DNA of 64,000 bases, from NCBI RefSeq assembly GCF_001634365.1, contig NZ_CP014578.1, positions 1,302,001 to 1,366,000 on the forward strand. Direction: 5' to 3'. The notes under the pieces were generated by a model. It had not been told where the DNA came from. It did not search any database and was given only the letters and a program-made list of their open reading frames with translations. How positions within the stretch are numbered: position 1 is the first letter of the stretch; the number at the start of each line of letters is the position of its first letter. The translations under genes were made by a program, and so were the position numbers. Shown here piece after piece: positions 3,550-21,661 of the stretch. Origin of the DNA: Paraburkholderia phytofirmans OLGA172. Its GTDB lineage: Bacteria; Pseudomonadota; Gammaproteobacteria; Burkholderiales; Burkholderiaceae.

Positions 3550-5532
<1,983 letters not shown>

Positions 5533-5624
5533 GCTTAGGTTGGCCTGGGTTTGCAGCAAGGGTATGTCGACTGATGTGCCTTTGAGCGGGCCCAGGTATC
5601 GACCACTTAAGTCAGGCAGTAAAG

Positions 5625-5667
5625 GCCACCGCGCGGACAATCCCGATTGCCTGCCCGGTGGCTTTTT
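5625..5667 (+). terminator. Terminator-like hairpin after acs
   Basis: GCCACCG (5625-5631) pairs with CGGTGGC (5656-5662), followed by a run of five T. The 24-base interior contains CAAT...ATTG and can fold further. It ends only 13 bases before the start of the next gene, so it may attenuate read-through rather than stop it completely. Confidence 0.55.
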
Positions 5668-5680
5668 GATACATAGGCGC

Positions 5681-6100: not shown

Positions 6101-6104
6101 GCCG

Positions 6105-8123
6105 ATGAAGCTCACGAACCGGCTGATCCGCTCATACGCGCTCTATACGCTCGGCTTCCTGCTATTCATTTATGTGATGTGGCGCATCGAGCGGGTCACC
6201 GGCTCCGGTGTGTGGATCGGCTATGTGTTCCTGTTCGTGCCGATCGCGGTGTATGCGGTGATCGGGTTGCTATCGCGCACGTCCGACCTCGTCGAATACT
6301 ACGTAGCCGGGCGGCGCGTGCCGTCCTTCTTCAACGGCATGGCGACAGCGGCCGACTGGTTGTCCGCAGCATCGTTCATCGGCCTTGCCGGGTCGATCTA
6401 TGCGACCGGATATGACGGTCTCGCGTACCTGATGGGCTGGACCGGCGGCTATTGCCTCGTCGCGTTCCTGCTTGCGCCGTACGTGCGCAAACTCGCGCGC
6501 TACACGATTCCCGACTTTCTCGGCACGCGCTTTTCGAGCAACGCGGTGCGTGGACTCGCTGCGTTAGCGGCGATCCTGTGCTCGTTCGTCTATCTGGTTG
6601 CGCAGATTCAGGGCGTCGGTTTGATCGCGACGCGTTTTATCGGCGTGGATTTCGCGGTCGGCATTTTCTGCGGACTCGCGGGCATTCTCGTGTGTTCGTT
6701 TCTGGGCGGCATGCGTGCGGTGACGTGGACCCAGGTCGCGCAATACATCATCCTGATCGCGGCGATTCTGATTCCCGTGTCGATGATCGCGCATAAGGAT
6801 GGCCTCGGCTGGGTGCCGCAGTTCAATTACGGCCGCTTGATGGAACGCGTCGAAGGCCTGGAAAAGCAGGTGCGCGACGCGCCGCTCGAGCAGACCGTAC
6901 GCGACGATTATCGACAGCGCGCCGCGCTGATGCAGATGCGGCTCGATACGTTGCCGCAATCGTTCGTTGACGAGAAGCTGCGCCTCACCCAGGAAGTCGC
7001 GGACTTGCGCCGCCACAATGGCCCGCTGCGCGAGATCAAGGAACGCGAGCGGGCGCTCGAACAATTTCCACGCGATGCCGCCGCCGCACAGATCGTCTGG
7101 ACCCAACGCCGCGACGAGATGCTGATGCGCGCGGCCGCGCCGGTGCCGATGCACGAGCCGTTTCCTGTCACAAGCGAAGAAGACCGGCGCACCCATGAAC
7201 GCAATTTCCTGTCGCTGCTGCTGTGCCTGTCGCTTGGCACGGCCAGCCTGCCGCACATCCTGACGCGCTACAACACGACGACCTCGGTGGCTTCAGCGCG
7301 ACGCTCGGTTGGCTGGACGTTGTTCTTCGTCGCGCTGTTCTATCTGACGGTGCCCGTGCTGGCGGTGCTGATCAAGTACGAGATATTGACCAACCTGGTC
7401 GGTCATCACTTTGCCGATTTGCCGCAGTGGCTCACGCAGTGGCGCAAGGTCGAGCCGAGTCTGATCAGCCTTGCCGATACGAATGGCGACGGCATCGTGC
7501 GCTGGAGCGAGATCCAGATGCAGCCGGATATGGTCGTGCTCGCCGCGCCCGAGATCGCGGGGCTGCCGTATGTGATGTCAGGGCTGATCGCGGCCGGTGC
7601 GCTGGCTGCGGCGCTTTCAACCGCGGATGGCTTGCTGCTGACCATCGCTAATGCGCTATCGCACGACGTCTACTACCACATGGTCGATCCGGCCGCATCG
7701 AGCCAGCGGCGCGTGACGATCTCGAAGATTTTGTTGCTTGGGGTGGCGTTGTTCGCCTCGTATGTGGCGTCGCTGAATACGGGGAATATTCTGTTTCTGG
7801 TGGGGGCGGCGTTTTCACTGGCGGCTTCGAGCCTGTTTCCGGTGCTGGTGCTGGGCGTGTTCTGGAAGCGCACCACGCGGCTCGGGGCGGTGGCGGGCAT
7901 GGTGGCGGGGCTGGTGGTGTGCATTTATTACATCGTGTCGACGTATCCGTTCTTCACGCAGATGACGGGTTTCGCGGGCGCACGGTGGTTCGGGATCGAG
8001 CCGATCAGCTCAGGCGTGTTCGGCGTGCCGGCGGGGTTTCTGGTGGCGATTGGAGTGAGTCTGGTCGACCGGAAACCGGACGCCTATACGAGGGCGCTGG
8101 TGGACTACATCCGGCATCCTTAG
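6105..8123 (+). CDS. Sodium:solute symporter large subunit (SSS family, VC_2705 type)
   Basis: This is a 672-residue multi-pass inner-membrane protein of the sodium:solute symporter family. RRVPSFFNGMATAADWLSAASFIGLAG is the family's conserved second-helix region. A hydrophilic helical insert (about residues 245-365, Arg/Glu-rich) separates two membrane blocks, as in the subgroup that works with a DUF4212 partner. A loop at D458 reads DTNGDGIVRWSE, a full EF-hand-type calcium loop. Position 6105 (MKLTNRLIR) is the likely start; the longer frame only repeats the neighbour's tail. The substrate is unknown. The location behind acs suggests a short-chain carboxylate. Confidence 0.88.
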   Translation: MKLTNRLIRSYALYTLGFLLFIYVMWRIERVTGSGVWIGYVFLFVPIAVYAVIGLLSRTSDLVEYYVAGRRVPSFFNGMATAADWLSAASFIGLAGSIYATGYDGLAYLMGWTGGYCLVAFLLAPYVRKLARYTIPDFLGTRFSSNAVRGLAALAAILCSFVYLVAQIQGVGLIATRFIGVDFAVGIFCGLAGILVCSFLGGMRAVTWTQVAQYIILIAAILIPVSMIAHKDGLGWVPQFNYGRLMERVEGLEKQVRDAPLEQTVRDDYRQRAALMQMRLDTLPQSFVDEKLRLTQEVADLRRHNGPLREIKERERALEQFPRDAAAAQIVWTQRRDEMLMRAAAPVPMHEPFPVTSEEDRRTHERNFLSLLLCLSLGTASLPHILTRYNTTTSVASARRSVGWTLFFVALFYLTVPVLAVLIKYEILTNLVGHHFADLPQWLTQWRKVEPSLISLADTNGDGIVRWSEIQMQPDMVVLAAPEIAGLPYVMSGLIAAGALAAALSTADGLLLTIANALSHDVYYHMVDPAASSQRRVTISKILLLGVALFASYVASLNTGNILFLVGAAFSLAASSLFPVLVLGVFWKRTTRLGAVAGMVAGLVVCIYYIVSTYPFFTQMTGFAGARWFGIEPISSGVFGVPAGFLVAIGVSLVDRKPDAYTRALVDYIRHP

Positions 8124-8161
8124 GCGGTTTTGCGCATGAGTGTGGCGCAGGGCGCGAAGTT

Positions 8162-8170
8162 TGCTATAAT
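8162..8170 (+). promoter_or_regulatory. Extended -10 promoter of tRNA-Ser
   Basis: TGC-TATAAT (TATAAT at 8165-8170) lies 14 bases before the tRNA. No good -35 is seen at 17 bases, but the TGn extension can compensate. Confidence 0.6.
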
Positions 8171-8183
8171 TCGGCTCCCCGCC

Positions 8184-8274
8184 GGAGAGATGGATGAGCG
8201 GTTTAAGTCGCACGCCTGGAAAGCGTGTATAGGTTAATAACCTATCCGGGGTTCGAATCCCCGTCTCTCCGCCA
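8184..8274 (+). tRNA. tRNA-Ser (anticodon GGA)
   Basis: The acceptor arm GGAGAGA (8184-8190) pairs with TCTCTCC (8264-8270), followed by G and an encoded CCA. The anticodon stem CACGC/GCGTG encloses loop CTGGAAA with GGA at 8218-8220. A long variable arm (TATAGGTTAATAACCTAT) marks a class II tRNA, and the T arm reads GGGGTTCGAATCCCC. The gene borders the accessory island, a common insertion site, but no second copy of the tRNA 3' end was found in the window. Confidence 0.96.
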
Positions 8275-8286
8275 AAAATGAATGAT

Positions 8287-8327
8287 AAGCCGTTGAATCT
8301 AAAAGAGATTCAACGGCTTTTTGTTTT
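8287..8327 (+). terminator. Rho-independent terminator of tRNA-Ser
   Basis: A perfect 14-bp stem, AAGCCGTTGAATCT (8287-8300) with AGATTCAACGGCTT (8306-8319), has a 5-base loop and a T-rich tail to 8327. Confidence 0.9.
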
Positions 8328-8876
8328 TCAACTCACAAAGCGACTATCAATGCAGTTCGTCCGTGTCGAAAGTCGGGATGGCCGCTACGCTAGCGCATTT
8401 TATTCGCGTCAGCTGATCAGCTCGTTAGAGCATCGCTCGTCCGAATCCGGGGCGACAGTCTTATGGCGCGCCACGGCGTGCGTCGCTTGCTTCGCACCTC
8501 GGCATGGATATCGTCGTCAATACATTTGGCGAGCGAAGACGAGTTAGAACGGTTATGGTTACTAAAAAGTGTTGATAGCGCGCTGGATGTGAGTGAGTGC
8601 CGGCCTTTCGGAGGTTTGTGTTTCACACAGTTGTTGGTAATGTGCCCACAACGCCCCAAATTCTCGTGGAAACCGCCTTCTGACCTGAATTTGTGGGTAC
8701 GCGCTCAAGGGACGACTTTGCGTAATCATAGCGAACAGCGCTGCGGTATGGCATGGTTGGAAGCACGAGAATGCCGAGCTTCCAACCCAGCCACAGCGTG
8801 GCAAACCATCAGCGGTCAAGGGTTCGCTTCGCCGGGCTGGCGCCCGCCCTTGACTCGTCATGTGTCGTCGCACCGG
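8328..8876. other. Left margin of the accessory island, no gene seen
   Basis: The stretch lies between the tRNA terminator and the end of the helicase gene. Short frames on both strands lack ribosome binding sites and protein-like composition. The island boundary probably falls here or at the tRNA, but no duplicated or inverted end could be identified by eye. Confidence 0.4.
8815..8854 (-). terminator. Hairpin after the recombinase-helicase operon
   Basis: GTCAAGGG (8815-8822) pairs with CCCTTGAC (8847-8854). Inside it, CGGGC/GCCCG forms a second stem around TGGC. It lies just after the helicase stop in the leftward direction. There is no T run, so it is a weak or Rho-assisted terminator candidate, or an mRNA-stabilising structure. 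Confidence 0.45.
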
Positions 8877-11123
8877 TCAGGCCGGCAGAAGGACATTATC
8901 GTCGGCTTGCATGAGGTAATGCATCAAGGCTAGGTCCAACGCTACCTTTCGACTGTGTGCCTTCGGCGGGGCTTCCACTGCCTTTTGGGCGGCCTCGACG
9001 TCTCCGACCAGGATGACCTGAACCTGGGCACGAGTGAGGGCTGTGTATAACAGCGTTCGGTCCAGCAGCCTTGACCTGGTGACCGGGATGATGACGCGGC
9101 GCCACTGAGAGCCTTGGGCCTTGTGAACCGTCGCCGCGAACCCGAGCTCGACATCCTCAAGCATCTCGGACGTGAGCTCCCGGCAAACGCCATCGTCCCA
9201 CTCGACCCAGGCCAGCACCCGTTCAGCGTCATCGCTGGGCTTGGTAGCGAGGGATTCGACCTCCACAACCCGACCCATTGACCCGTTCTGCAGTCCTTTG
9301 TCCCAGAGGTTGCGAGTGCAGAGAACGACATCTCCAAGGTTGAAACCACAGTACTCAGGCCTGTCGAACTCGTCGTTCCACCGAGTCACAGTTGGCCCGT
9401 CGCCGGTGAATCGCTGCTGGCAGACCTGGTTGAGTACCTTGGTCCCTGCCGGGCCGTTTCGCAGCGGCGCAAGGACCTGCGTGCCAGCGGTATCGACGGC
9501 ATAAAGGTCCGCCACTCTTTCCGCGATTTGCCGGTCATCACAATGGATGAAGGCAACGGACGCCGTCTCGTCGGCAGAGATGCTCGGCCACACCCCCTCC
9601 CGCACGGCCGAAGCCACGGCGGCAATCTCCCCTCCATAGCGCTTCACGGTCTTGAGCTCGGTCGAGGGAATGCGTGGCACCCTCATGACACAGTGAAGGA
9701 CGAGACCAGGCCCGACCGGCATGAGCTGGTAGGGGTCACCAACGAGAACGAGTCGTACGTGAGGAAGTAGCGCCTGGCACAGGCGGCTCATCGAGACGAT
9801 GTCAACCATGCTCGCCTCATCGATGACCAACACCGTGGGACCATCGAAGGTCAGGTTGTTGACGCTCTTAAGGAAGCTGGCAATCGTGAATGCGGGCAGA
9901 CCAGTGGCTTCCTGCATCCGCTTCGCTGCGCGTCCTGCAAGTGCCACCTGTAGCACTTTGGTTCCTGCGTCCTGATACAGCCGACACAACGACCTGAGCA
10001 CGGTCGTCTTGCCCACGCCAGCCCCACCGGTGATGCAGGCAAACGCGTACTCGTCGGCCATCCTGATAGCATTCCGCTGCTCCGGGTTCAGCTCAATGCC
10101 GTCTTCAGCTTCGCAAGCCGTGATGATTCGCTCGACCCGATGACCAGGAAGCAGTCGCTCGATGCCGCCGGTCAAACGCTCCTGGATAGCCTTGGCTACC
10201 TGACGCTCCATAACCAGAGCGCCCAGCGGTTGCAGGCCGTGCTGCGTCTGAACGATGTGGCCGCTTTTGAGGCCCTCCGACACGGCGGTCGCGAGCAAAT
10301 CTCGCCATTGAACGCCGACTGGCGGTCGTCCCAGCAGCGGGGCGACCTGCTCGACCAGGTCCGCCGACAGCATTGCCGTGTGGCCGGCGGCGAACATCCG
10401 ATAGCACGCCTCCTCGCCGGCTCCCCGCAGCCGGCGAGGGTCGTCGGACTGAACGCCGAACTGCGTTTGTGCCATCAGGTCGACGGTCGACCATTTGCCG
10501 GCAAACGATAGCAGGCGATAGGGGTCTTCCTCAATGCGAGCTTGCGCTTCACCACCGAAGTACCGCAGCACCTTCCGTCCCAGTCCGATGTCGAAGCCAG
10601 CGGCCTGAAGCCACTGAAGGGTGCGGGACTCGCCGTGACAAGCCCAGGCCTCAACCAGACGCTGAGCTGCCGCAGCAGAGAGGACGTCGGCGAACGGCGA
10701 CGGGTCGGCCGCGTCCAGCAATTGATACAACTGCTCGCCGAAGCGCTCCCAGAGCCGTCTGGCTTTGACTGTTCCGAGTCCCTCGAAGGCGGGGTTCTCG
10801 GCAATGAACGTGACGAGATGCTCGCCGGTCGGGCGGGCGAGATACGCGACCTCCGCATCGACCTGCTGCTCAACCAGCTCGAAGCCGTCAACCACGGACC
10901 GGCGCTCAACCAGCTGTCCTGCAACCGTCCACCATTGGCCTCGCTCGACCTTTGTTCCGCCAAGGGTAGCCCGGGTCGCCTTGACGACGACATAAGTGCA
11001 CGCGTCAAGGACAGACCCAGTAGCATCGACGGGAACCCCGGTGAAGATGGCTCCGCCGAAGCCTCGAGGGTTCTGAGACCTGACCCCCGTCACACGCAGC
11101 GTGACGTTCGTAGGGTCGCTCAC
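8877..11123 (-). CDS. RecD-like superfamily 1 DNA helicase of the island
   Basis: A 748-residue ATP-dependent helicase of the RecD2/TraA type. Walker A is GGAGVGKTT near residue 365, Walker B is VLVIDEASMV, and the next motif is GDPYQLMPVGPG. The C-terminal UvrD-like domain carries ATVHKAQGSQW and LLYTALTRA. The N-terminal 350 residues contain the helix-hairpin-helix-like segment FEGLGTVKARRLWERFG found in RecD2 proteins. It is the last gene of the leftward operon and its ATG overlaps the previous stop by four bases, so it is translationally coupled to the integration genes. It probably helps process the element's DNA during transfer, replication or integration. That role is inferred from context. 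Confidence 0.88.
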   Translation of the reverse strand: MSDPTNVTLRVTGVRSQNPRGFGGAIFTGVPVDATGSVLDACTYVVVKATRATLGGTKVERGQWWTVAGQLVERRSVVDGFELVEQQVDAEVAYLARPTGEHLVTFIAENPAFEGLGTVKARRLWERFGEQLYQLLDAADPSPFADVLSAAAAQRLVEAWACHGESRTLQWLQAAGFDIGLGRKVLRYFGGEAQARIEEDPYRLLSFAGKWSTVDLMAQTQFGVQSDDPRRLRGAGEEACYRMFAAGHTAMLSADLVEQVAPLLGRPPVGVQWRDLLATAVSEGLKSGHIVQTQHGLQPLGALVMERQVAKAIQERLTGGIERLLPGHRVERIITACEAEDGIELNPEQRNAIRMADEYAFACITGGAGVGKTTVLRSLCRLYQDAGTKVLQVALAGRAAKRMQEATGLPAFTIASFLKSVNNLTFDGPTVLVIDEASMVDIVSMSRLCQALLPHVRLVLVGDPYQLMPVGPGLVLHCVMRVPRIPSTELKTVKRYGGEIAAVASAVREGVWPSISADETASVAFIHCDDRQIAERVADLYAVDTAGTQVLAPLRNGPAGTKVLNQVCQQRFTGDGPTVTRWNDEFDRPEYCGFNLGDVVLCTRNLWDKGLQNGSMGRVVEVESLATKPSDDAERVLAWVEWDDGVCRELTSEMLEDVELGFAATVHKAQGSQWRRVIIPVTRSRLLDRTLLYTALTRAQVQVILVGDVEAAQKAVEAPPKAHSRKVALDLALMHYLMQADDNVLLPA

Positions 11124-11560
11124 CGAGGAAGCCTCCCCGTTTCCGCGAGGACCTCCTGAAGCACCGCGTAACGGCCTAACATGCGCTTGAGCTCGGCATT
11201 CTCCGCCTTCAGGCTCGCGTTCTCCTGCTCCAGGCGAGAAAGGCGCTCAGCATCCTGAGCCGCGCGAGGTGACTCAGCGGCTCGGAGTCTGAGCGGCGAC
11301 GCTTCCGGCTCGTCTCCCGACACAAGCTGCGGAAGCACGCCACGCTCGCGCAGGTCCGCCTCCAGGTTCTTGAGCGCATCCCGAATCCGTGGATTCTGCG
11401 CGAGCGCCGATTTCGCAAACCCACACTCTGCCGCGATTTCCGTGCGCGACAGGACGCCTCGCGTCACCATGTTCCGGAAGTCCTCGTCGGTCCTCGATGC
11501 CGCCCAGGTCGTGAACCGACGCACATTCTCCTCGGCGACCTGCTGTCCGCTTGCCATCAC
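11120..11560 (-). CDS. Small coiled-coil protein of the recombinase-trio operon (VPA1267-like)
   Basis: About 146 residues. The N-terminal half has a helix-turn-helix-like stretch, SRTEIAAECGFAKSALAQNP. The C-terminal half is a Leu/Glu coiled coil, RLSRLEQENASLKAENAELKRML, ending in a short basic tail. The GTG at 11560 overlaps the stop of the gene before it, and its own stop overlaps the helicase start. A protein of this layout sits beside the trio in Vibrio islands, and the VPA1267 comparison is recalled rather than searched. A DNA-binding accessory or regulator for the recombinases is plausible. Confidence 0.7.
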   Translation of the reverse strand: MMASGQQVAEENVRRFTTWAASRTDEDFRNMVTRGVLSRTEIAAECGFAKSALAQNPRIRDALKNLEADLRERGVLPQLVSGDEPEASPLRLRAAESPRAAQDAERLSRLEQENASLKAENAELKRMLGRYAVLQEVLAETGRLPR

Positions 11561-11991
11561 TTGGCTCCTTTCGAACGGTCGCGCTCCGGCTTCGGGAGCG
11601 GGGCATTCAACATGTCCATCGTGACGCCCTTGCGCTCGGCGTTAGTCGCCCACGTCAGGAACTGCTCGTTCAGGAGCTGGTTCTCTGCTTCCAGCCGTTC
11701 GGCTTTCGCTTTATAGCGGGAGACCTGCTCGAGAGCCGCACGAACCCGTTCATCCCGAGGCTCGCCTCGTTCATGTGGCAAAGTACCGCGCAACACGTCC
11801 TTCTTGAGCGAGAACGCATTCGCAATTTGAGGGTATTCCGCGAACGTAAATCGCGAGTATCGGTAGCCGGTCGCCGCCTGGACCGCATCCAGCAAGAGCT
11901 CCCACGTAAGCTTGCCTTTCCATGTGTCCAACGTTTCAAGGATTTTTGCAATGCGCTCGTCGGTTAGGTCTGGTGCCCGGTTCTTTTTCAT
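11557..11991 (-). CDS. GmtX-like accessory protein of the recombinase trio
   Basis: 144 residues from ATG 11991, which overlaps the stop of the large recombinase by four bases (ATGA). The N-terminus (DLTDERIAKILETLDTWKGK) and the stretch WELLLDAVQAATGYRYSRFTF suggest a compact helical DNA-binding fold. The second half is a coiled coil (YKAKAERLEAENQLLNEQF). It shares its layout with TnpC-type and GmtX-type accessory proteins. A longer upstream frame exists but lies wholly inside the recombinase gene. Function in recombination is inferred from strict operon coupling. Confidence 0.7.
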   Translation of the reverse strand: MKKNRAPDLTDERIAKILETLDTWKGKLTWELLLDAVQAATGYRYSRFTFAEYPQIANAFSLKKDVLRGTLPHERGEPRDERVRAALEQVSRYKAKAERLEAENQLLNEQFLTWATNAERKGVTMDMLNAPLPKPERDRSKGAK

Positions 11992-14021
11992 GCAAGTACC
12001 TTTCGCCGCGTAGTCCGGACAAACCTGACAGGGTGAACATTGTCGGTTGTGATGAGCGGAGCGTTGTCCACGTCCAGACGAATCCGCGCTCCAGCGGGTA
12101 CCGCCGGGTCCTCGAGAATCGACAGGAGGGCGTTGACTCGTTCGAGCGTCAGCGTCTGGTGCTTGACCCAGGTATCGGCACCGTACTCTTCTTCGCTCAA
12201 GGCTTCCTTGGCCTGCTTTAACAGGTACTCGGTCTCGCTCTTGAGCATGCGAAGGTTCGCTTCCTTCTGCGTCTCTCCCTTGATGCACTCCTGCTCCTCG
12301 CAGTTAACGCAGTCGCGGTACATCTGACACGGCTCGCTCGCGAAGTCGTGTTCGCACCAGCCGTATTGGGTCGTATGTGCCGCCGTCAGCCCCAGGCCTT
12401 TGAACTCGCCGCGCGTAACTAGGTCACGCCTGGTGAAGACCGGTTCCAATTCTGAGGTGAACCCGTCCTTCAATGCCTTACTGATGGGCGCCTGCACCTC
12501 ATCCGAGGTCATATGGTCGTAGGCGCGGTTCTGCTTCACGTCCTTCCGACCGGAGAAGATGGCAATTTCGGTGCTGCTCAAGCCGCCGGTCTGCGCCAAC
12601 ATGTTCAGGTAATGGCGCAAGCTGTGACTTTGAAGCTCGATAGGCGAGCCGTCGTCCTCGGTGTAATGGAAGCGTTTGAAGATGGAGACTCGACCCTTGC
12701 GCGCCCCGTAGTGGTTGGTGATAGTGTCGGTGTCAACGCAACTGAACATGCAAAGGTATGTCGCCTTCTGCGAATGCATTTCGTTCATGAGCATGATGGA
12801 CATGGACTCACGGCACAGCCGGTCGGAGGCGCCCGGTACGTAAGGGAAGGTCTCGGGCAGCAGGGCAACGACAGCCCGCTCGACATCCTCAAAGAGATAG
12901 CCAATACTGCGTCCGCCGAGCGGCTGCTTGGGCAGTCGCCTGTTTTTGTTTTGAGCCCAGGTGTTGGCCGGTCCGCTCGCCGTCGCATCACCCCACAGGA
13001 TGAGACCGATTCCCTCCAACGTCAGGACCTTCTTGTCGCGAAGATGCACAGCCCCCTCGTGGAGGTACAGCTTCTCAGGGTTCTCCGTGTACCAGGCCGC
13101 CAACTTCTGGGCCGGTGTCGTCACCTCGATGATGTTTGCGACCGCCTTGCGTGCGATGGGCACCATTTCCGTGGGGAGCCACTTCGTGGTGTCCTCTGCC
13201 CCCTTTGACCCGGACCACCGTAGCCCCAGCTTCCCACGATATTCGCCGTCGCCCTCAACCAGGCAGTTGCGGCGAAGCCGAATCACTTCGTTGATGCGCT
13301 CCGGCGCACAGAGCAACAGGCCGGTGACGCTCGACACCATGACATCGGGAGGCTCGATGGCATCATGGAAGATGGCTCCGAGCGCACGGAGCGTGGCGGC
13401 GGAAGGCAGCTTCTCCTGCCGAGCCGTCAGGGCCTCCTGCGAGATACGAGACCCTCTTTCGTCGGGCTTTTTGAGGCCATGCGTCCAGCGTTGACGGAGG
13501 TGGATAAACCCCTTGGAGCGCATGAGCTCAGCGATAGATTGAAGTTGACCGGCGGTCCGGTAAGCCACCGCCGGCGAAACCTTCCTGCCATTTACCACCG
13601 CCCTAGCAAGTAAGACCGCGCTATCCAGCACATCTTCGTCGACAGCCGTCGGCCGCGAGCCTTTGCCTGACTCGCGCAAGGCGGCTTCAAGGCATCGAAG
13701 CGCCGCAATGCGCGGCGCCTGCGACTCTACCGGCTTCTTGTCGTGAAGGTAGACAAGCGTCGCTTTCGCAAAGTCCAGGAACGGATGCGGCAGACTCGGC
13801 TCGGGCTTGTCTTCGCGGGACGCCGCAAGGGTGCTGAACACCACCCGGTTCACCTTGTTCTGTCCTTTGAAGTATCCGAGCGTCCAGACGTTTATGTCGA
13901 ACTGCCCCCGCGCACCCAGCACGTCCGAGTCCCTACAGAGGGCCACGAAGGCCTCGATGTTGGCCAGGGGCGCTAATTCGGCCCGAGGCGTAAAGTTGAG
14001 TACTGGAGTTGGGGCTTTCAT
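11988..14021 (-). CDS. Large tyrosine recombinase-like integrase (GmtZ / VPA1269-like)
   Basis: 677 residues from ATG 14021, which overlaps the previous stop as ATGA. The C-terminal catalytic core shows APERINEVIRL (first Arg), SHSLRHYLNMLAQTGG (HxxR box, with His-Ser-Leu-Arg) and a Tyr candidate in KQNRAYDHM. It is followed by a Cys-rich segment, CEHDFASEPCQMYRDCVNC then CIKG, which may bind zinc. The size and Cys box fit the largest integrase of gamma-mobile-trio modules better than phage integrases. It acts with the two recombinases upstream, and all junctions in the operon overlap. Family naming is from memory. The catalytic residues are seen in the sequence. Confidence 0.78.
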   Translation of the reverse strand: MKAPTPVLNFTPRAELAPLANIEAFVALCRDSDVLGARGQFDINVWTLGYFKGQNKVNRVVFSTLAASREDKPEPSLPHPFLDFAKATLVYLHDKKPVESQAPRIAALRCLEAALRESGKGSRPTAVDEDVLDSAVLLARAVVNGRKVSPAVAYRTAGQLQSIAELMRSKGFIHLRQRWTHGLKKPDERGSRISQEALTARQEKLPSAATLRALGAIFHDAIEPPDVMVSSVTGLLLCAPERINEVIRLRRNCLVEGDGEYRGKLGLRWSGSKGAEDTTKWLPTEMVPIARKAVANIIEVTTPAQKLAAWYTENPEKLYLHEGAVHLRDKKVLTLEGIGLILWGDATASGPANTWAQNKNRRLPKQPLGGRSIGYLFEDVERAVVALLPETFPYVPGASDRLCRESMSIMLMNEMHSQKATYLCMFSCVDTDTITNHYGARKGRVSIFKRFHYTEDDGSPIELQSHSLRHYLNMLAQTGGLSSTEIAIFSGRKDVKQNRAYDHMTSDEVQAPISKALKDGFTSELEPVFTRRDLVTRGEFKGLGLTAAHTTQYGWCEHDFASEPCQMYRDCVNCEEQECIKGETQKEANLRMLKSETEYLLKQAKEALSEEEYGADTWVKHQTLTLERVNALLSILEDPAVPAGARIRLDVDNAPLITTDNVHPVRFVRTTRRKVLA

Positions 14022-15556
14022 GACACCGCCTCCGATTCCTGTTCGGCACGCTGCTGCCAAACCTGGGCGCAAAGCGCGATGACCTCCTTGACTGCCCGGA
14101 TGGGCTCATCATTCACCGCCGCCATTCGGTCGTCCGCCGACCAGTTTTCCCGCTCAGACTCCAGGCGCTCAAGCACCTTCTCGTGCGGAGCGTCGAGCCA
14201 CGGCTCGAACCGGAAGCATCCGTAGCAGGCGACCGGCTTGTTGAAGGCACAGCTTTTGCCTTGTCCCGCGCAGCTACCCACCGGGTCCTTTGAGACCCGG
14301 AAGTCAATGATACGGCTCCCGGGAGCGCCCTTGTGGGTCGTGTGCTCCTCATCCAGCACGAGCTGCCCTTTAAAAGCCTGGGCGAGCGGAGCAAGCATAG
14401 CCCCCATAGCCCGGTCGATGTTTTCAACAATCTTTGGAGAGGCTGCGACATAGACGTCAACCTGCTGGAGGTCTGCATGGCCCATCCGGTTCGCGATGAT
14501 TACCTTGCTTGCACCTTCCTCGGCTAGCCGGGTGCCGAAGGTGTACCGGAATCTCTGTGCCGTCAGAGGCGTCGGCGCGAAGTCGAGCCGGGAAGTTGGC
14601 GGTGCAATTTCCGTCATAAGGGTACTGAACCACGCCGACAGTGTTTCCGGAGTGCAATGCCCGTAGAACAGGTCGTCAATGGCCCGACGTTGTTTGCGAG
14701 GTCCCCGAGGCATGACCAGGGCTTGTGGGAAGAAGGCGGAGTTGTCGTCGTATTCCTCCTCGCGCAAACCACTTATATAGTCTGCGATGAGCCGTCCCGT
14801 TTGTGGACTGATGTCAAACGCGAGGAAGCTGATTCGCGCGTGCTCCAAGCCCGTTTTGGCCTGAGGAAGGCTAAGCACTAACGTCGTGCTGTCAAAGTCA
14901 CAGAGTTTGAGTGAAGCATATTGAGAGATACGACCGCCGCACGCCAAGAGTAGTCTGGTGAGCAGAAGCGTCCACAACGGTAACTCACCGCGACCATAGG
15001 CAGCGTTGACCGCCGAGTACAGCGCGGTGTATTCCTCCTCGCTCAGCGGTCCTGCGACTGGGTCACGCGTCCTGACCGCCTTGCCCTTCTCATTGCCGGG
15101 CTTCTTGCGCTCGAGCAAGTACGTGGCACACTCCGGCTCGACGCCGGGCAGACCGAGGTTCACCCACTTTTGTAGCAGACCGTTGAGGGTCCCGAGCCGC
15201 CCGATTTCGTGAGCACCCAGCTTGGCTGCGTAGTTGGAGATATGCTGCGCGCCAATGGCCCCTTCCGGGCATGTCGGCATGGCGTCTACGAAATGGGTGA
15301 ACGCCCCATTCAGGTTCATGACATGCGCAGATGAGTGCCCCTTGACGAACGGAAGCAGGGCATGCTTGAGCCACGGAACGAACGCTTCGAAGCCGTTGTT
15401 GTAACGTCGAAAGTCAATGTACGCGTCCGCCGGGCCATCCGCCCACTCCCAGACGTCGTCGTTTGGGTCGAAGCTGCTCTTGCTGCGCGTGAATACACGC
15501 TTGGGCAAAGTAATAACAAGAGCGGTGGAGGAACGCAGTTCATTTGTCTGTAACAT
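14018..15556 (-). CDS. Tyrosine recombinase, second of the trio (GmtY-like)
   Basis: 512 residues. The catalytic domain contains ACGGRISQYASLKLCD (first Arg), AQRFRYTFGTRLAEEG (box II, with Gln where His is usual) and NRMGHADLQQVDVYVAAS (box II His and the nucleophilic Tyr). A Cys-rich tail follows, with SCAGQGKSCAF and ACYGCFRF, so this protein and the next both carry putative zinc knuckles after the catalytic core. It overlaps the upstream recombinase by 17 bases and the downstream one by four. The order and overlap suggest the three proteins act as one integration complex. Confidence 0.82.
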   Translation of the reverse strand: MLQTNELRSSTALVITLPKRVFTRSKSSFDPNDDVWEWADGPADAYIDFRRYNNGFEAFVPWLKHALLPFVKGHSSAHVMNLNGAFTHFVDAMPTCPEGAIGAQHISNYAAKLGAHEIGRLGTLNGLLQKWVNLGLPGVEPECATYLLERKKPGNEKGKAVRTRDPVAGPLSEEEYTALYSAVNAAYGRGELPLWTLLLTRLLLACGGRISQYASLKLCDFDSTTLVLSLPQAKTGLEHARISFLAFDISPQTGRLIADYISGLREEEYDDNSAFFPQALVMPRGPRKQRRAIDDLFYGHCTPETLSAWFSTLMTEIAPPTSRLDFAPTPLTAQRFRYTFGTRLAEEGASKVIIANRMGHADLQQVDVYVAASPKIVENIDRAMGAMLAPLAQAFKGQLVLDEEHTTHKGAPGSRIIDFRVSKDPVGSCAGQGKSCAFNKPVACYGCFRFEPWLDAPHEKVLERLESERENWSADDRMAAVNDEPIRAVKEVIALCAQVWQQRAEQESEAVS

Positions 15557-16796
15557 CGAGCTGTTCTTGTAGTTTCAGGGAGACTTCCCGTCCTTTACGG
15601 CTCGCGTGACGACGGGTATAGGTTGCAGCGGACTTCGAGTTATCGGTCCACCCTTGCTGTTCATTCCGGGCTTTCTCTTCGACGGCATCCGTCAGCCCCA
15701 GCAGTTCAGCCTGCTCGGAGAAGCGTTCATTCCAGGTGTGGCGCATCACATGGCTCGTCAGCGTGACGGGCAAGCCTGGGCAAGCCTCGCGAAGCTGCCG
15801 GAATATCTTGTCGACGCTACCCAATGACAACGGGTAGCCATCGTCTGTAACGATGAGCTGCGGGTGCTTGCGAGCGGCCTTGATTTTCTTTCTGTGACGC
15901 CTAATGTAGTTCCAGACGGCCCGCATAATTTCCGGCCGCACCTCCACCTCTCGGTCGTTGGTCTTGGTATTCGGCTGAATGCGACGGGGGTCTTCACTTG
16001 CATCGGCCCGCCGGATGATGCGCAGCTTGGGCAGGCTTTGATGGAGGTCTTTAAGCTGAATGCCCAGCAACTCGCCGCGACGCATGCCGGTCGCGAGCAA
16101 GAGCACAACCATCAGCCAATTCCGGTAGCGGACATAACCTTGCTGCCACGGGTTGTCGGGCGAGTCTAGGCGAACCACAGCGAGGAGCCGGTCCTGGTCC
16201 TCCTTAGAAAGTCCCTCCCGGGCACCGAGCTTGGCACGCTTGGGGACTTTGGGCACTTGAGCCAGAAATGCTTTGAGCGCGTGAGCGCTTTCAATCGCCA
16301 ATTCCTTTCGCAGGGGCGCCGGCAGCGTCGCACCCACATACATCGCCAAGAACTCCAGGAAATCCGCCATGTACCGAAGTCGGGAGGCTTGGGTAGCTAC
16401 GCTGACCGCCTTGGCCTGCTCGACTGCCGCTTTGCGACGCATGCGGATTCGTCGGATATCAATGACTTTTGATGTACCTGGTTCCTCTGCGTCTTCGTAG
16501 GACAGGTCATCCACTCGATACTGAGCAGCATCGGCTAATCGGTTGAGCTGAGGTATCGTCAGGAACTGACCGACCCGCAATCGTTCGAGCAAATCGATTT
16601 TGTGCTTAGCCAGCTCTCTGTATAGCAAAGCCAACACCATGCAAATGCCATGAATCGTGTTGGCGGCTCGACCGCGCTTGCGGTACTTGTTCAAGTACAG
16701 GGTCGCTTCGTGGACCGGAAGGCCTCCGGGCCTACTCAGCACAGAGTGATGCTCTCCGTTCCGGAACCTGATGCGCTTTGCGACAAATCTCGTCAT
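15540..16796 (-). CDS. Tyrosine recombinase, first gene of the integration operon
   Basis: 418 residues. The active-site set includes GMRRGELLGIQLKD (Arg I), TSHVMRHTWNERF (His-x-x-Arg), QGWTDNS (third-position His replaced by Trp) and AATYTRR (Tyr). An N-terminal core-binding-like domain occupies about the first 190 residues. The gene starts at ATG 16796 behind a GGTGGG ribosome binding site. The promoter of the whole leftward operon must lie in 16797-16870. Compared with a minimal GMT trio this is an additional recombinase, or alternatively the trio is made of these three recombinases as in RIT elements. Confidence 0.85.
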   Translation of the reverse strand: MTRFVAKRIRFRNGEHHSVLSRPGGLPVHEATLYLNKYRKRGRAANTIHGICMVLALLYRELAKHKIDLLERLRVGQFLTIPQLNRLADAAQYRVDDLSYEDAEEPGTSKVIDIRRIRMRRKAAVEQAKAVSVATQASRLRYMADFLEFLAMYVGATLPAPLRKELAIESAHALKAFLAQVPKVPKRAKLGAREGLSKEDQDRLLAVVRLDSPDNPWQQGYVRYRNWLMVVLLLATGMRRGELLGIQLKDLHQSLPKLRIIRRADASEDPRRIQPNTKTNDREVEVRPEIMRAVWNYIRRHRKKIKAARKHPQLIVTDDGYPLSLGSVDKIFRQLREACPGLPVTLTSHVMRHTWNERFSEQAELLGLTDAVEEKARNEQQGWTDNSKSAATYTRRHASRKGREVSLKLQEQLDVTDK

Positions 16797-16872
16797 CTAC
16801 CCACCGTTTTTGCCAAGTAGTAGTTGAGTAAAGACGCTACTAGAACATAAAACAAAGTGTGGGTAAAGAAAA

Positions 16873-16899
16873 AGCCCGCGTGCTGAGGGCACGCGGGCT
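16873..16899 (-). terminator. Rho-independent terminator of the 16930-18042 gene
   Basis: A perfect 11-bp stem, AGCCCGCGTGC (16873-16883) with GCACGCGGGCT (16889-16899), has a 5-base loop. On the minus strand it is followed by TTTTTCTTT. It insulates the recombinase promoter from cargo transcription. Confidence 0.88.
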
Positions 16900-16929
16900 C
16901 TAATCAACAAAAATCTACCTTAGTAGCTT

Positions 16930-18042
16930 CTAGAACGGGATATCGACCATGTCCTTCATCTCCTCTACTGCTGCGGCGCGCTCGGTGTTGTTGGACCTTA
17001 CGAAAGTTCTATGCCATGCATCAAGGCGCGTTGTAACCGCCCGATCAAATTCGCCAGTGCTCCCGATAAATTCCATAGAAAACTGGTCCTTTGCATGCGA
17101 CTTCAAAGAATCGCTCTCTTGACTCGATGTAATTGTTCGAACGTAAGGGTCGAGCCATTTATCTACATCACTCAATTCCAAGAAGGGGGCTATGCCCTTT
17201 AACATCCTAAGCGTTTCGTTGGTGTGCGTACGGGCGGCCCGGCCTAGTAGAAACTCGCGCACTAGCGGTTCGTATTGTTTCGCCACGTTACGGATGTCGG
17301 GAGCCGAGAAGAAGCCTGCACTGTACCTGTCGACATAGTCTCCGTCCTCCTCCCGCAGAATGCGCACGAACTGGGCGGCAACGCGCTCGCGAATTTCATC
17401 GCTCACATTCTCCATGGTGACACGATAGGCGGTCAGAAGGCGTTCGGGTTCGTTGTCGAAAGGCTCTGGGTCCTCTGGTCGGTTCATGTATGTATCAGGT
17501 ATGAGTTCCAGCAGAAGCCGTTCTCGCTGAGTTTCATTGGCCTCTAAGATGAGGTGCTTAATAATCGTTGATGAGTTCGAGTCACGCCTTACCTTCGAGA
17601 CGATCTGCTCTGCGGTCAACCCGACCGATTTACGTCTGGTCCTCGCCAATTCATCTGCGATCATATCTATCAAGGTCGTCGCGATTGTTGCGCTGCTACG
17701 GTTCGGTTCCGGCTCTCCCGTTCGCACAACTCGCCCGGGGTGGATCAGGTTTCGATAGGAGCGGATAACACTGCACAAGTCGGCTGTACGAGCGGTCAAG
17801 ACGCCCTCATTCCGACAAATAGTGATTGCCTCGGCGAGATCAATTCGAAGAGGGTCTTTGCTGGGTCTGTCAGGGGCACTCGTCGAGAGAAGGTAGTCGA
17901 TGAGCAAAGACTCGACAATGCTGCCCGCAAGCACTTGTACGCTTTTCCAAGCTTCGGCCTGTAGGCATTTCGCCATTTCCGAATAGTCTCTCTCAAGGGA
18001 AAGACGAAATTCTTTAAGTGTTATGAAGTCGAAACTTGGCAC
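16930..18042 (-). CDS. HEPN-like cargo protein of unknown function
   Basis: About 370 residues. GTG at 18042 is chosen because AAGGAAA precedes it; a TTG at 18066 would add eight residues. The N-terminal 130 residues are helical and include SYRNLIHPGR, which resembles the RNxxxH-type motif of HEPN ribonucleases and nucleotide-modifying domains. The remainder is helical, with no motif recognised. It is the first cargo gene after the integration operon, on the same strand but separated by a terminator. HEPN proteins are frequent in defence and toxin-antitoxin systems, so a defence role is a reasonable guess and no more. Confidence 0.7.
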   Translation of the reverse strand: MPSFDFITLKEFRLSLERDYSEMAKCLQAEAWKSVQVLAGSIVESLLIDYLLSTSAPDRPSKDPLRIDLAEAITICRNEGVLTARTADLCSVIRSYRNLIHPGRVVRTGEPEPNRSSATIATTLIDMIADELARTRRKSVGLTAEQIVSKVRRDSNSSTIIKHLILEANETQRERLLLELIPDTYMNRPEDPEPFDNEPERLLTAYRVTMENVSDEIRERVAAQFVRILREEDGDYVDRYSAGFFSAPDIRNVAKQYEPLVREFLLGRAARTHTNETLRMLKGIAPFLELSDVDKWLDPYVRTITSSQESDSLKSHAKDQFSMEFIGSTGEFDRAVTTRLDAWHRTFVRSNNTERAAAVEEMKDMVDIPF

Positions 18043-18099
18043 GTCATTTCCTTTGCTCAGAAACAAGGTGGTTTAAGGTATTTCCATCATACGAGGTTA

Positions 18100-18123
18100 A
18101 AAAGGCGGTGCATGCACCGCTTT
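18100..18123 (-). terminator. Palindromic terminator between antirepressor and HEPN-like genes
   Basis: The perfect 16-base palindrome GCGGTGCATGCACCGC (18105-18120) is flanked by A and T runs, giving a T5 tail on the minus strand. It follows the antirepressor stop. Confidence 0.75.
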
Positions 18124-18156
18124 CTCAATCCAAGCTACACACAACCGGCTATCTGA

Positions 18157-18855
18157 CTAGTAGCTCGGCCCGAGTCGCGGGTGAAGTGCTAGGGATAATT
18201 GCACCGGTCCACAAAGCAGTCGGCTTCGATGTTTGTCGATTTGCTCCCAGTCTCCGAGCGTATCAAGGTGGGATAACAGGCGACTCGCAAATTCAGTTGC
18301 CAGCATCGCTTGGTCGCGGCTCATGTCCCGAAAGCTGCATGCGCCAGCATAAAAATGCATGACTCGATACGCGGAGCTGTACGGAACGTGTCGATCAATG
18401 ACAAGCTCGGTGGCAAGCCGGAGTGCGTCGGCGCGATCGGCGGAAGTACTTTTTTCACGACCACTACACACTTGATGCATATTGACGTTGACGCCTGCGT
18501 TCCAAAATCGCCACAGCGCATCATCACACTCGGCCTGATACTCGGCGACGCGCTCACGGACTGCAGGGCGGACTTTTCCGAGGCTTATCGAGTGCAACCA
18601 CCCGGGAAGCTTTCTGACCGGTAGACAGGTCATGGGGCGAAGTTGACCGTCCCCACCAATCATGGCGATTTCCGCCATGCTTGAGCGAAAGCGCTGTCGC
18701 ATTTTCACTTGCTGGCTCTTCCAGTCAAGTCCCATGCCCTCGACTATCGGTTTGACAGCGGTATATGGCTGGCCATCATGTTCCACAACGTAAAGGTCGG
18801 TACCATGGAAAGGCACTTTGATTTGGCGTGATAACGCCCGCGTGCTAGGATGCAT
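18157..18855 (-). CDS. P22-type phage antirepressor
   Basis: 232 residues from ATG 18855 with a GGAGA ribosome binding site. The N-terminal half (IKVPFHGTDLYVVEHDGQPY, IVEGMGLDWKSQQVKMRQRF, LPVRKLPGWLHSI, RERVAEYQAECDDAL) is the classic P22 antirepressor N-terminal domain, with the conserved closing segment YQ.ECD..L..FW. In phages this protein inactivates a repressor to promote lytic or excisive growth. An Arc-type repressor lies on the opposite strand, and a strong hairpin sits directly upstream of this start, echoing the phage immI control region. Confidence 0.88.
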   Translation of the reverse strand: MHPSTRALSRQIKVPFHGTDLYVVEHDGQPYTAVKPIVEGMGLDWKSQQVKMRQRFRSSMAEIAMIGGDGQLRPMTCLPVRKLPGWLHSISLGKVRPAVRERVAEYQAECDDALWRFWNAGVNVNMHQVCSGREKSTSADRADALRLATELVIDRHVPYSSAYRVMHFYAGACSFRDMSRDQAMLATEFASRLLSHLDTLGDWEQIDKHRSRLLCGPVQLSLALHPRLGPSY

Positions 18856-18880
18856 GCGTTCATTCTCCAAGTTTGAACAC

Positions 18881-18926
18881 AAGCCCTGACCGTCATCCGC
18901 CAAGATATCCGGTCGGGGCTTTTTTA
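18881..18926 (-). ncRNA. Candidate C4-like antisense RNA hairpin upstream of the antirepressor
   Basis: On the minus strand AGCCCCGACCG pairs with CGGTCAGGGCT around a 17-base loop (plus-strand stem 18881-18892 with 18909-18920). It lies 26 bases before the antirepressor start. In P1/P7-type phages a small C4 RNA at this place silences the antirepressor, and related RNAs are known before many ant genes. The structure is seen. The C4 identity is inference from location. On the plus strand the same element ends in a T6 run and could instead be a terminator. Confidence 0.35.
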
Positions 18927-19023
18927 TCGTTCGTCCGCCTTCGCGCGCGCCTTCATCTTAGTTGCGCTCTTTAGCGTCTAACGATCACCCAATGCGGCGA
19001 CCGGCCCAGATGGTCCGCCTTTT

Positions 19024-19044
19024 CCTGTGGAACTCATCCACAGG
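19024..19044. promoter_or_regulatory. Perfect inverted repeat between antirepressor and Arc genes, operator candidate
   Basis: CCTGTGGA (19024-19031) and TCCACAGG (19037-19044) flank a 5-base spacer. It sits in the divergent control region. The heptamer GTCCGCC occurs three times around it (18934, 19014, 19045). Arc-family proteins bind short inverted repeats, so this is the natural operator candidate. Confidence 0.5.
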
Positions 19045-19166
19045 TCCGCCAGCATTCGTAGCGGCCAAGAATTTGGCTTGAAGATATGCACAGAAAGAAT
19101 CAAAATAGAATCTATCTGAGGATCAGGTTATAGTATCGTCACATCACGATGATTCAGTCAAGAGCC

Positions 19167-19661
19167 ATGATGCAAAAAGAGAAGCTGGTAGCAAAGCAAC
19201 CCTCTGCATACCCGTTGAGGATGCCGCCGGAATTGCGCGAGGCACTGCAGGCTTCCGCTGATGCCGCTGGCCACAGTCTCAATAACGAAATCGTGGCGCG
19301 ACTTGAGAAGAGTATTGGTCCGCCTCCGAAAATCCCGAAGGGGCTCGAGGACATCATCAAGGCTGCGTCGACGGACATCAATGAATCAGTGGAAGAGGCG
19401 GCGCTACGTCTGGTCGTAGCTGGAATTCGCTCGGAGGACTTTCGGCGCTCAGTGCAAGCCAAGGATGCCGCTGGACGGTATCGTGAAATCGCCGTTCATG
19501 AACTGCTGATTTCGACCAGCGAGAAGTTGGCCGAACTTGCGCACTACGTCGGTCAAGTTCCGGCGGCAGATAGGGAGCGAGCGGCAGCGGCGATTCGCCA
19601 TAGCGATGCAGTACGCCGCTACGTACGACAGCTCGACCTTTTTCGGTCTATGGACGGGTAG
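19167..19661 (+). CDS. Arc-family ribbon-helix-helix repressor
   Basis: 164 residues from ATG 19167, with AAGAG five bases upstream; an ATG at 19149 lacks a ribosome binding site. The segment YPLRMPPELREALQASADAA then GHSLNNEIVARLEKSI is an Arc DNA-binding domain (beta strand plus two helices, with the usual 'SLN.EIV.RLE'). The C-terminal 110 residues are an extra helical domain not present in P22 Arc. It is transcribed away from the antirepressor, with about 310 bases between the starts. It probably represses one or both promoters there. Confidence 0.85.
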   Translation: MMQKEKLVAKQPSAYPLRMPPELREALQASADAAGHSLNNEIVARLEKSIGPPPKIPKGLEDIIKAASTDINESVEEAALRLVVAGIRSEDFRRSVQAKDAAGRYREIAVHELLISTSEKLAELAHYVGQVPAADRERAAAAIRHSDAVRRYVRQLDLFRSMDG

Positions 19662-19731
19662 GGTCGGGCTAGAACCTACGATGTTTGTCCAATAGCGCTA
19701 CGCGGTTCGATCATGGTCAGGAAACTTGTAG

Positions 19732-20058
19732 ATGATTGCACGGTATAGGAAGTCTATTTACAAGCTCACCCAGTTGCTTCGCGCGCTAGAGTCGAATCCG
19801 AGCGACTGCGACCTTTTGTTGCTGCTCCAATGGGAGTTGATTGCAAGAATCAGGCGTACCGAAAGACGCATCGCGGAACTTAAAGAACGAAAGCGAATTC
19901 TCGATCAGGAGAAAAATATGGCAGGCATTCCAAGGCCATATCGCAAACCATCAAGCAAGAAATTGCATCGACATCGGCAGCCATTTCGCATGCCCAATGG
20001 TTGCTATTTGTCTGGCGGTGACGGCATAGGCGTCGTTGCGCCGACGAACTCAAGTTAG
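19732..20058 (+). CDS. Small hypothetical coiled-coil protein
   Basis: 108 residues, strongly basic and helical in the first 65 (LLQWELIARIRRTERRIAEL), then a Lys/Arg/His-rich tail. An AGGAAA lies 11 bases before the start. There is no recognisable domain. It sits between the Arc gene and the AbiU2-like gene on the same strand, and may be a small cargo gene or a remnant. Confidence 0.4.
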   Translation: MIARYRKSIYKLTQLLRALESNPSDCDLLLLLQWELIARIRRTERRIAELKERKRILDQEKNMAGIPRPYRKPSSKKLHRHRQPFRMPNGCYLSGGDGIGVVAPTNSS

Positions 20059-20128
20059 TTTGTGTCCGCTGGCGCTCCGGTATGATCGGCCAGACAACGA
20101 ACCTAACCACAGGGTGGGGGCGCAGGCA

Positions 20129-20836
20129 ATGAGCGACGAAGACCCAAAAATCACGGCTCTAAAAGAAAAAGTAAAAGCCGCAGAGCAGGAAATTGGAATG
20201 GCGGTCATGTTCCATGAGACGTGGAAGCCGACTGCATATGAAGAGGAACTGCATAAGCGGATGGGCGAGTCATTTGCCACGCAGGCATTTCTCATTGTGC
20301 GCATGTCGCTTCGGCGTGAGACGTTGCTCGCGCTTATGCGAATTTGGGACAGTGACAAAAAAGCAGTCGGAGTGCAATCAGTCGTTCGCACCTTGCGTGA
20401 CCAGCAATTCTTTGATGCCCTGATTGCGTCAAGGACCGATCATCTTGAGGGGTATTTGCGATTAACCCTCGAAGAACACTTAAGAGGAACGCTGGGCGAG
20501 CAGTTAGCCAAGGTGGGGGCGCTGGTAGATAAATACACTAAGGGCGGCGCTGGTTTTGATGCCTTCAGGAAGTTACTGATATTGCGGAATGGGCAGTTGG
20601 CACACCGACAGGCTTCGCCCGCAAAAGCAGGCGGATTCGATGCGACGGACGAGGAAATTGAATCGTTCTATCTGGACAATCTGGAAATCGTTAGCCTGTT
20701 GCTAAGTATCGTTCTAGCACACGCTTTTGATTTGAACGAAGCTGCTGACGTTTATCGGCACTACGCTAAATTCTTTTGGGCGGCGGCGCTTGGAGAGCGC
20801 ACAGAGGGGCATCCAGACTATCGGCCACCAGCCTGA
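20129..20836 (+). CDS. AbiU2-like HEPN domain protein
   Basis: 235 residues starting at MSDEDPKITALK (20129); the longer frame upstream has no coding character. The sequence SLRRETLLALMRIWDSDKKA, the following TLRDQ, and LRNGQLAHRQ match the AbiU2 pattern, where R-N-x4-H is the HEPN active-site type motif. AbiU2 proteins were first linked to abortive phage infection in lactococci, and most members act as or resemble RNases. Here a second unknown protein follows 51 bases later on the same strand. A defence function is plausible from family and setting, not shown. Confidence 0.72.
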   Translation: MSDEDPKITALKEKVKAAEQEIGMAVMFHETWKPTAYEEELHKRMGESFATQAFLIVRMSLRRETLLALMRIWDSDKKAVGVQSVVRTLRDQQFFDALIASRTDHLEGYLRLTLEEHLRGTLGEQLAKVGALVDKYTKGGAGFDAFRKLLILRNGQLAHRQASPAKAGGFDATDEEIESFYLDNLEIVSLLLSIVLAHAFDLNEAADVYRHYAKFFWAAALGERTEGHPDYRPPA

Positions 20837-20887
20837 TGATGGTGCATTAGTCAGCTAGGCGAACAACGAAGACGAACCGGGGCAAAC

Positions 20888-21550: not shown

Positions 21551-21661
21551 AGCGATTTTCTGGCTGACGAGCGTGCCAAGGATGGGTCACGAATGACCAG
21601 TCGCCGACGCGTCAGCGCCGCCTGACAGCCGATGCAATTGCCTGCGATCGCGAGCGGAAGA

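Follow-up and report, generated by a model that had tools for sequence, protein, structure and literature searches.

Two identical copies of a compact, apparently intact GInt element at two genes of a Paraburkholderia chromosome

What kind of mobile element stands near a tRNA-Ser gene in a Paraburkholderia chromosome, where does it end, and which target does it use? The question is raised by a stretch of 64,000 nucleotides, called here the window (G000:C1:1302001-1366000, G000 being the host genome of 8.57 Mb), in which a sequence-only reading had seen a mobile module in a presumed betaproteobacterium. The host genome does belong to the Burkholderiales, and the mobile character is borne out by an exact 8,394-base unit that occurs twice in the chromosome and by an empty site in a relative. 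We hold it highly probable that window 8545-16938 is an apparently intact GInt, an element of the family named Tn6571 in PMC10121019, and that it represents a compact six-gene subtype of this known kind. The assignment is clear, fitting the description in PMC5385486 in operon, gene order, target and short terminal repeats.

The ends of the 8.4 kb element are exact, at 8545 and 16938, as given by the identity between the two copies, since its 8,394 bases recur letter for letter elsewhere in the same chromosome. The match of window 8541-16945 to C1:400852-409256 covers 8,405 bases; its two mismatches, 8543 and 16939, fall just outside the element, and past the element ends the flanks of the two copies are unrelated. 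On this comparison and on the empty site in the genome G385, the coordinates given before, 8275-16930, should be moved to 8545-16938. A larger island as the mobile unit is ruled out, as the two copies have only 8545-16938 in common. Chance is excluded because of the letter-identical copy and because operons of the same order occur in other species and on plasmids. The two copies could have been made by some other recombination, no movement having been observed, but the unrelated flanks and the exact ends speak against this.

The second copy sits at the stop codon of ssb and the window copy at the stop codon of ORF378. The core reads CCGTTC|TA in both, that is, Pro-Phe codons and a stop, as in an SSB-type tail, and the spacer is the same in both. 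The insertion is site-specific with short direct repeats, TAGAACGG standing at both ends. At attR (8545..8552, minus strand) the repeat is TAGAACGG on the plus strand and CCGTTCTA in gin orientation, and its 6-base Pro-Phe-type spacer (8547-8552, minus strand) is placed by the end of the two-copy identity and by the empty site in G385. The right end of the element past the helicase gene (8545..8876, minus strand) bears the motif ACTTTTTAGTAACCATAA before the repeat. A short AT-rich 3' end belongs to the GInt description; here the outermost 100 bases have a GC content of 46% and the last 330 bases 56%, against 60% for the whole element. The left end (16797..16938, minus strand), delimited by comparison with other GInt left ends, comprises the stop codon of the target gene, a stem-loop with a T-run (16874-16898, minus strand, by eye) and the ginA leader. 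It includes attL (16931..16938, minus strand), the second copy of the terminal repeat, whose spacer (16933-16938, minus strand) consists of Pro-Phe codons, 16930-16932 being the TAG stop of ORF378. The terminal-repeat pattern, present at 8545 and 16931, has 4 matches in the window, where about 1 is expected by chance. The longer TAGAACGGNATATC, spanning the core and the tail codons, occurs exactly twice in the 8.57 Mb genome, at both attL sites, while a control pattern gave 0 occurrences.

The comparison with genomes free of the island, suggested earlier as a way to find its ends, yielded the empty site in G385. There, the tRNA-Ser side corresponding to window 3491-8548 (92.9% identity) joins the ORF378 side corresponding to window 16931-17145 (94.0%), so that the blocks meet at 8548/16931 with the overlap TAGA. 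The tRNA-Ser(GGA) gene, at 8184-8274, lies near the element, but it is a bystander and not the target. It is ruled out as attachment site by the 270 bases that separate it from the element and by the lack of any reported tRNA-derived direct repeat of at least 16 bases between 8184 and 26000. Beside the element, GC drops to 53-54% in window 16000-22000; this region contains ORF378 and a P22_AR_N antirepressor-like gene (18157-18903) and may be what is left of a prophage or island beside the tRNA-Ser gene.

The six open reading frames all lie on the minus strand and, with the starts chosen, overlap by 17, 4, 7, 4 and 4 bases, confirming the earlier description of six genes on one strand with overlaps of 4-17 bases. 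The ginA gene (15540..16796, minus strand) encodes a tyrosine recombinase of 418 aa (PF00589 44.2 bits, cut-off 27.1) with invariant residues R238, R351, W382 and Y392 in alignment A3. The ginB gene (14018..15556, minus strand) encodes another of 512 aa (PF00589 47.9 bits, cut-off 27.1), which narrowly passes NF041502 (354.3 bits, cut-off 350) and has invariant R208, R336, H359 and Y368 in alignment A4. The product of ginC (11988..14021, minus strand) is a divergent tyrosine-recombinase-fold protein by a 132-row alignment and predicted fold; its 677 aa start was used, the mechanical reading frame being 694 aa from an upstream TTG. Thus, of three tyrosine recombinases proposed before, those of 418 and 512 aa stand by PF00589, and that of 677 aa, which has no library match, is placed by conservation and predicted fold. 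The ginD gene (11557..11994, minus strand; the mechanical frame is longer) encodes 145 aa without a useful library match, conserved at the same position in alignment A5 of 13 sequences and coiled-coil-like by eye at the C-terminus. It is followed by the gene of a VPA1267-family protein (11120..11560, minus strand, 146 aa), whose C-terminal part also looks coiled-coil by eye and whose family, already recognised, is upheld by NF040697 (200.2 bits, cut-off 90) and alignment A6. The last gene (8877..11123, minus strand) encodes a RecD2-like SF1B helicase of 748 aa, likewise in line with the earlier RecD-like call, with matches to TIGR01448 (354 bits, below the 500-bit equivalog cut-off), PF13604 (137 bits) and PF14490 HHH_RecD2 (42 bits). 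The order ginA, ginB, ginC, ginD is kept in relatives, as in GInt, with three integrase-type genes and one small gene.

For GinC (677 aa), the best match across Pfam, NCBIfam, PHROGs and PADLOC has E 0.17 and is not meaningful, and a sequence search of the PDB found no recombinase. In the alignment, Arg, His-x-x-Arg and Tyr are kept in 131-132 of the 132 rows, with an Arg replacing the usual second His/Trp, and R242, H466, R469, R492 and Y501 are the candidate catalytic residues. This conservation and the predicted fold, compared with PDB structures, place GinC with the tyrosine recombinases. The model is weak near Y501, with pLDDT <50 in residues 478-577, so that the catalytic reading depends on the conserved residues of the alignment and on the fold predicted for ~195-477. 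Profile comparison gave very low probabilities, 3.4 per cent against GinA and 1.0 per cent against GinB, and the latter alignment, at its 1.0 per cent, pairs GinC Y501 with GinB Y368. GinC is reported in PMC5385486 as lacking catalytic residues, including the first arginine, whereas the window GinC keeps this arginine. Judged by its residue conservation, GinC would go beyond that published description.

At the second copy, the SSB ends DDDIPF (the protein tail reads ...GGGFDEMDDDIPF) and the last codons and stop of ssb, CCG TTC TAG, pass through the repeat core. We examined 25 gin copies, representing 24 loci with G000 counted twice; more exist, for instance in 79 plasmid records, most of them beyond this set, and in partial loci. 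Directly behind ssb lie 16 of the 25, and the Ile-Pro-Phe end is kept in 16/16 (L031 included). These copies, the second copy of the element among them, mark ssb as the preferred GInt site, its product unaltered, in agreement with PMC5385486, which describes insertion at the end of ssb without a change of product and 6-nt staggered cuts. Two copies follow other genes, namely the window copy (ORF378) and L071, whose target ends DLPC* and not in Pro-Phe; one stands in tandem behind another GInt (L066, in G329), and six (L019, L063, L064, L075, L078 and L140) have no placement. The far end was located in eight copies (G000 twice, L018, L065, L066 twice, L069 and L070), and attR reads CCN TTY stop in every one, an agreement that is partly built in because attR outside G000 was found via that motif; that of L018 was located by homology and not by motif search. 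The 6-base GInt spacer published in PMC5385486 would thus be the Pro-Phe codon pair.

Stop codons at the 16 ssb-adjacent copies are TAG in 8, TAA in 2 and TGA in 6, and all 7 copies with a GinC identity of 58% or more to the window protein use TAG. Many occupied sites show the gene followed by a short GC stem-loop and T-run from the element (by eye), and this element-borne structure, a putative terminator, would end ssb transcription. Six genomes without a gin-protein match beside ssb were also examined, and their ssb genes stop with TAA or TGA. Three of them (L117, L118 and L125) present a clean empty ssb site, the conserved flank starting ~140-150 bases past the ssb stop, and the other three (L126, L129 and L130) have ~0.4-1.1 kb of other DNA between ssb and that flank.

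The second target gene, ORF378 (16930..18066, minus strand), ends ...DMVDIPF*; its start is probably 8 codons later, because the homologue search gives the window protein as 370 aa. It has a weak DUF4145 match only (E 0.063) and none in PADLOC. Among 8,000 candidates scored, 572 homologues were found, and the best 120 of the 572 are considered here. Pro-Phe ends 76 of these 120 listed matches (the window's own included), Ile-Pro-Phe ends 39, and 44 are without Pro-Phe; counted by cluster, with a crude word measure, 67/107 end in Pro-Phe. A comparison set of 120 GinC proteins contains none with this end. Among the final 12 residues, the average is 2.4 acidic and 1.3 basic ones. In three genomes of the same family, a 68% homologue ends GACATTCCCTTCTAG (DIPF*), and the 16 kb examined contain no match to element proteins; these genomes count as one lineage and not three, because their stretches are alike. 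The Pro-Phe end thus belongs to ORF378 by nature, and it is similar to the tail of SSB. In G385, where the empty site closes a gene remnant, the sequence is CCTCTC (Pro-Leu), which had by itself suggested that insertion rewrites the ORF378 tail from Pro-Leu to Pro-Phe; this idea was dropped because of the DIPF* homologues and because G385 matches only residues 307-377 of the ORF378 protein. The ORF378 family may accordingly be a look-alike of the SSB tail that serves the element as another target.

The order of the gin genes is conserved beside ssb in Paraburkholderia polaris, P. aspalathi, P. eburnea and Rhizobacter, and also on E. coli and P. aeruginosa plasmids, where homologues at 31-37% stand at the plasmid ssb genes; in the most distant loci (L074, L076-L078 and L140), tblastn found no ginD. 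GinC is matched at >100 bits in 17 of 144 genomes of the genus. An order-level GinC search of 300 genomes gave 6 with a match at E <=0.001, and outside G000 none of these scored above 33 bits. From ssb to attR, L065 measures 9.1 kb, L069 8.4 kb, L018 8.4 kb and L070 5.7 kb, the tandem copies of L066 are 8.3 and 8.2 kb, and each G000 copy is 8.4 kb. Cargo-poor GInts of 5.7-9.1 kb thus recur, with 8 copies in 6 Paraburkholderia genomes, and by their sequences such compact forms would go beyond the published GInt accounts; cargo in PMC5385486 ranges over 2.5-70 kb. In the window, the DNA after ginD holds only the VPA1267 and RecD2-like genes, about 2.7 kb, which are possibly machinery. Other GInts have cargo, such as avs4 and an AbiGi-family gene on the E. 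coli plasmid pEQ011.

The same searches brought further observations. Two GInts (L030, L031) occupy plasmid-borne ssb genes, one on an IncF plasmid of E. coli, with avs4 and an AbiGi-family gene, and one on a conjugative plasmid of P. aeruginosa, with a type ISP restriction enzyme. GInts of different subfamilies stand in tandem behind one ssb in G329 (L066 3796-19901), and in P. aspalathi a first GInt is followed by the apparent left end of another (L018 15430-15560). Directly past the element copy at ssb, ~59 bases resemble a GInt left end (L009 19258-19316, 95% to L066 12618-12676) and may have been left by an earlier GInt; a similar stretch (86%) occurs in G354. The P. eburnea GInt has a ginC that lacks ~200 internal residues (L021 10001-11399). 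The host genome itself contains another gin-like operon (L011, L013, L014), of ~414, 512, 820 and 206 aa, which scores equally in two places on two replicons (G000:C1:2259972-2264388 and G000:C2:1501889-1506305). On a Sinorhizobium meliloti plasmid (L140 1465-9818), VPA1267-like and RecD-like genes accompany a gin-like operon, which is not at ssb within the DNA examined.

Three other element families have to be weighed against the GInt assignment. The sequence-only reading had favoured a betaproteobacterial branch of the gamma-mobile-trio (GMT) elements, with the proteins of 512, 677 and 145 aa as GmtY, GmtZ and GmtX, and the VPA1267 match above cut-off, the RecD-like helicase, placed as it is in true GMT plasmids, and a trace GmtY match do point that way. 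In the NCBIfam profile search, however, the 677 aa protein has no GmtZ (NF047926) match and the 145 aa protein no GmtX (NF040692) match, and the 512 aa protein scores 16.2 bits against a GmtY cut-off of 340. This is the outcome named beforehand as fatal to the mobile-trio reading. The models are able to find their families, giving 529 (GmtY), 989 (GmtZ) and 228 bits (GmtX) on a Providencia plasmid GMT used as positive control, and a diverged GMT-like module in the host genome still scores 302 bits with GmtZ and 36 bits with GmtX. Protein sizes differ as well, and ginA is an extra recombinase. Moreover, the VPA1267 neighbour is not diagnostic of GMT, because GInts have it too. GMT membership is ruled out by these models and their controls, and the proposed branch, which we consider extremely improbable, falls. 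That diverged module, a relative of GMT in a Burkholderiales host (L137 6843-14906, at ~500.8-508.9 kb of G000:C1) scores under the cut-offs for GmtY (213/340), GmtZ (302/600) and GmtX (36/40 bits) and has a VPA1267 match of 162 bits (cut-off 90) followed by RecD2.

A RIT element, with its recombinases in a trio, would account for three adjacent recombinase genes in a genome whose 97 Phage_integrase matches include many that stand in clusters of three; yet the fourth small gene, the GinC without a PF00589 match, the ssb target and the homologous operons that carry ginD make it just as improbable. RIT is not supported by the architecture, by which, and not by protein comparison, it is set apart. 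The Phage_integrase clusters of three in the host genome themselves look like RIT elements, several of them equal-scoring in two places. Scarcely better are the prospects of a strand-biased circularizing element (SE, intA-tfp-intB-srap). In PMC10214605, the SE and Tn554 group shares two or three recombinase-type proteins with a TnpC/Srap-like small protein, and thus the same number and kind of genes in SE, together with a 6-base spacer and a suggested copy-out; its protein families differ by that published description, and SE homologues are reported there only in Gammaproteobacteria, while GInts occur also in Betaproteobacteria. Gene order and ssb target fit GInt, and SE is set apart by description. 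The GInt described in 2017 (PMC5385486) agrees with the window element in the ginABCD order of three recombinase-type proteins and a small protein, the end-of-ssb insertion that keeps the product, the short terminal repeats and the 6-base core; the window element differs from that account in having no cargo past VPA1267-RecD2 and two identical copies at two genes.

With the GInt assignment in place, the role of the VPA1267 and RecD2-like genes can be considered. Of the 24 gin loci, 11 have the pair behind ginD (window, L017, L018, L020, L065, L066 twice, L069, L072, L073 and L140) and was not found in the other 13 (L019, L021, L030, L031, L063, L064, L070, L071 and L074-L078). These 13 loci, among them L070, which appears complete at 5.7 kb with ginABCD alone, indicate that the pair is not essential. 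Both genes may therefore be passengers, a small cargo perhaps with a defence function, with ginABCD as the whole machinery. We regard this as a serious possibility that falls short of probable; it agrees with the published minimal element, for which ginABCD is enough (PMC5385486), and with the resemblance of the helicase to the PADLOC models typeIV_RecD (174.6 bits) and RecD_like (126 bits). Against passengers speak the overlapping genes from ginD through recD2 and the co-divergence of the pair with GinA-C (r = 0.87-0.94 over 11 loci and 55 pairs, which are not independent), the gin proteins among themselves giving r 0.97-0.98 in pairwise identity at the same loci. The exceptions, L018 and L066 versus L072, seem to point to occasional exchange of the pair, as cargo would show, and these one or two apparent swaps favour the passengers.

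A second type of element has this pair at the equivalent position, which also speaks against passengers. In both GMT plasmids opened (n=2), a VPA1267-family gene and then a RecD2-like (AAA family) ATPase gene lie behind GmtX, and gmtX is named at the VPA1267 match in 29 of the 40 plasmid rows listed (56 records in all); the window element shares the pair but differs in its lack of GmtZ/GmtX matches, its trace GmtY and its extra ginA. The L137 RecD2 is 50-58% identical to ten non-alpha GInt RecD2s and 31-32% to two gammaproteobacterial GMT ones. Trees of RecD2 and VPA1267 do not establish any mixing of GMT and GInt versions, so a single origin of each is possible. A class-level VPA1267 search matched 4 of 369 genomes, over cut-off only in G000. 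On balance, we lean towards VPA1267-RecD2 as a portable cassette that serves element movement and is not a passenger.

A scheme of movement can be drawn from these parts. GinA, GinB, GinC and GinD would assemble on both ends and on a host site with the overlap CCGTTC, all four gin genes being essential according to PMC5385486. With the junction just before the stop codon, the target gene would keep its Ile-Pro-Phe tail and gain the element's TAG stop and terminator-like stem-loop, and the host's old stop codon would be displaced past the far end of the element. As the target codes for the conserved tail of SSB, such a site is expected in many hosts, and another protein family with the same Pro-Phe tail would offer a second landing site. 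The RecD2-like helicase and VPA1267 would most likely unwind or process DNA in a copy-out step, a role that we infer and think somewhat probable. Taken jointly, it is a tentative proposal, possible and not yet probable, that GInt and GMT share a portable VPA1267-RecD2 cassette driving replicative copy-out, that GInts have three competent recombinases, and that SSB-tail look-alike genes are landing sites via the Pro-Phe spacer. A search of literature listings found no report of a GInt with a VPA1267-RecD2 cassette or an SSB-tail look-alike target; the cassette, the target logic and the second landing gene, partly inferred, would go beyond the published GInt accounts searched.

Two identical, small, apparently intact copies and an empty site in a relative make a convenient test object, on which published claims become testable: that GinC is without catalytic residues, that GInts carry cargo, and that the machinery consists of the four gin genes only. 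A common VPA1267-RecD2 cassette would connect two separately described families, GInt and GMT. The ORF378 family, finally, looks like an imitator of the SSB tail, and such mimicry would bear on the biology of the proteins that partner SSB.
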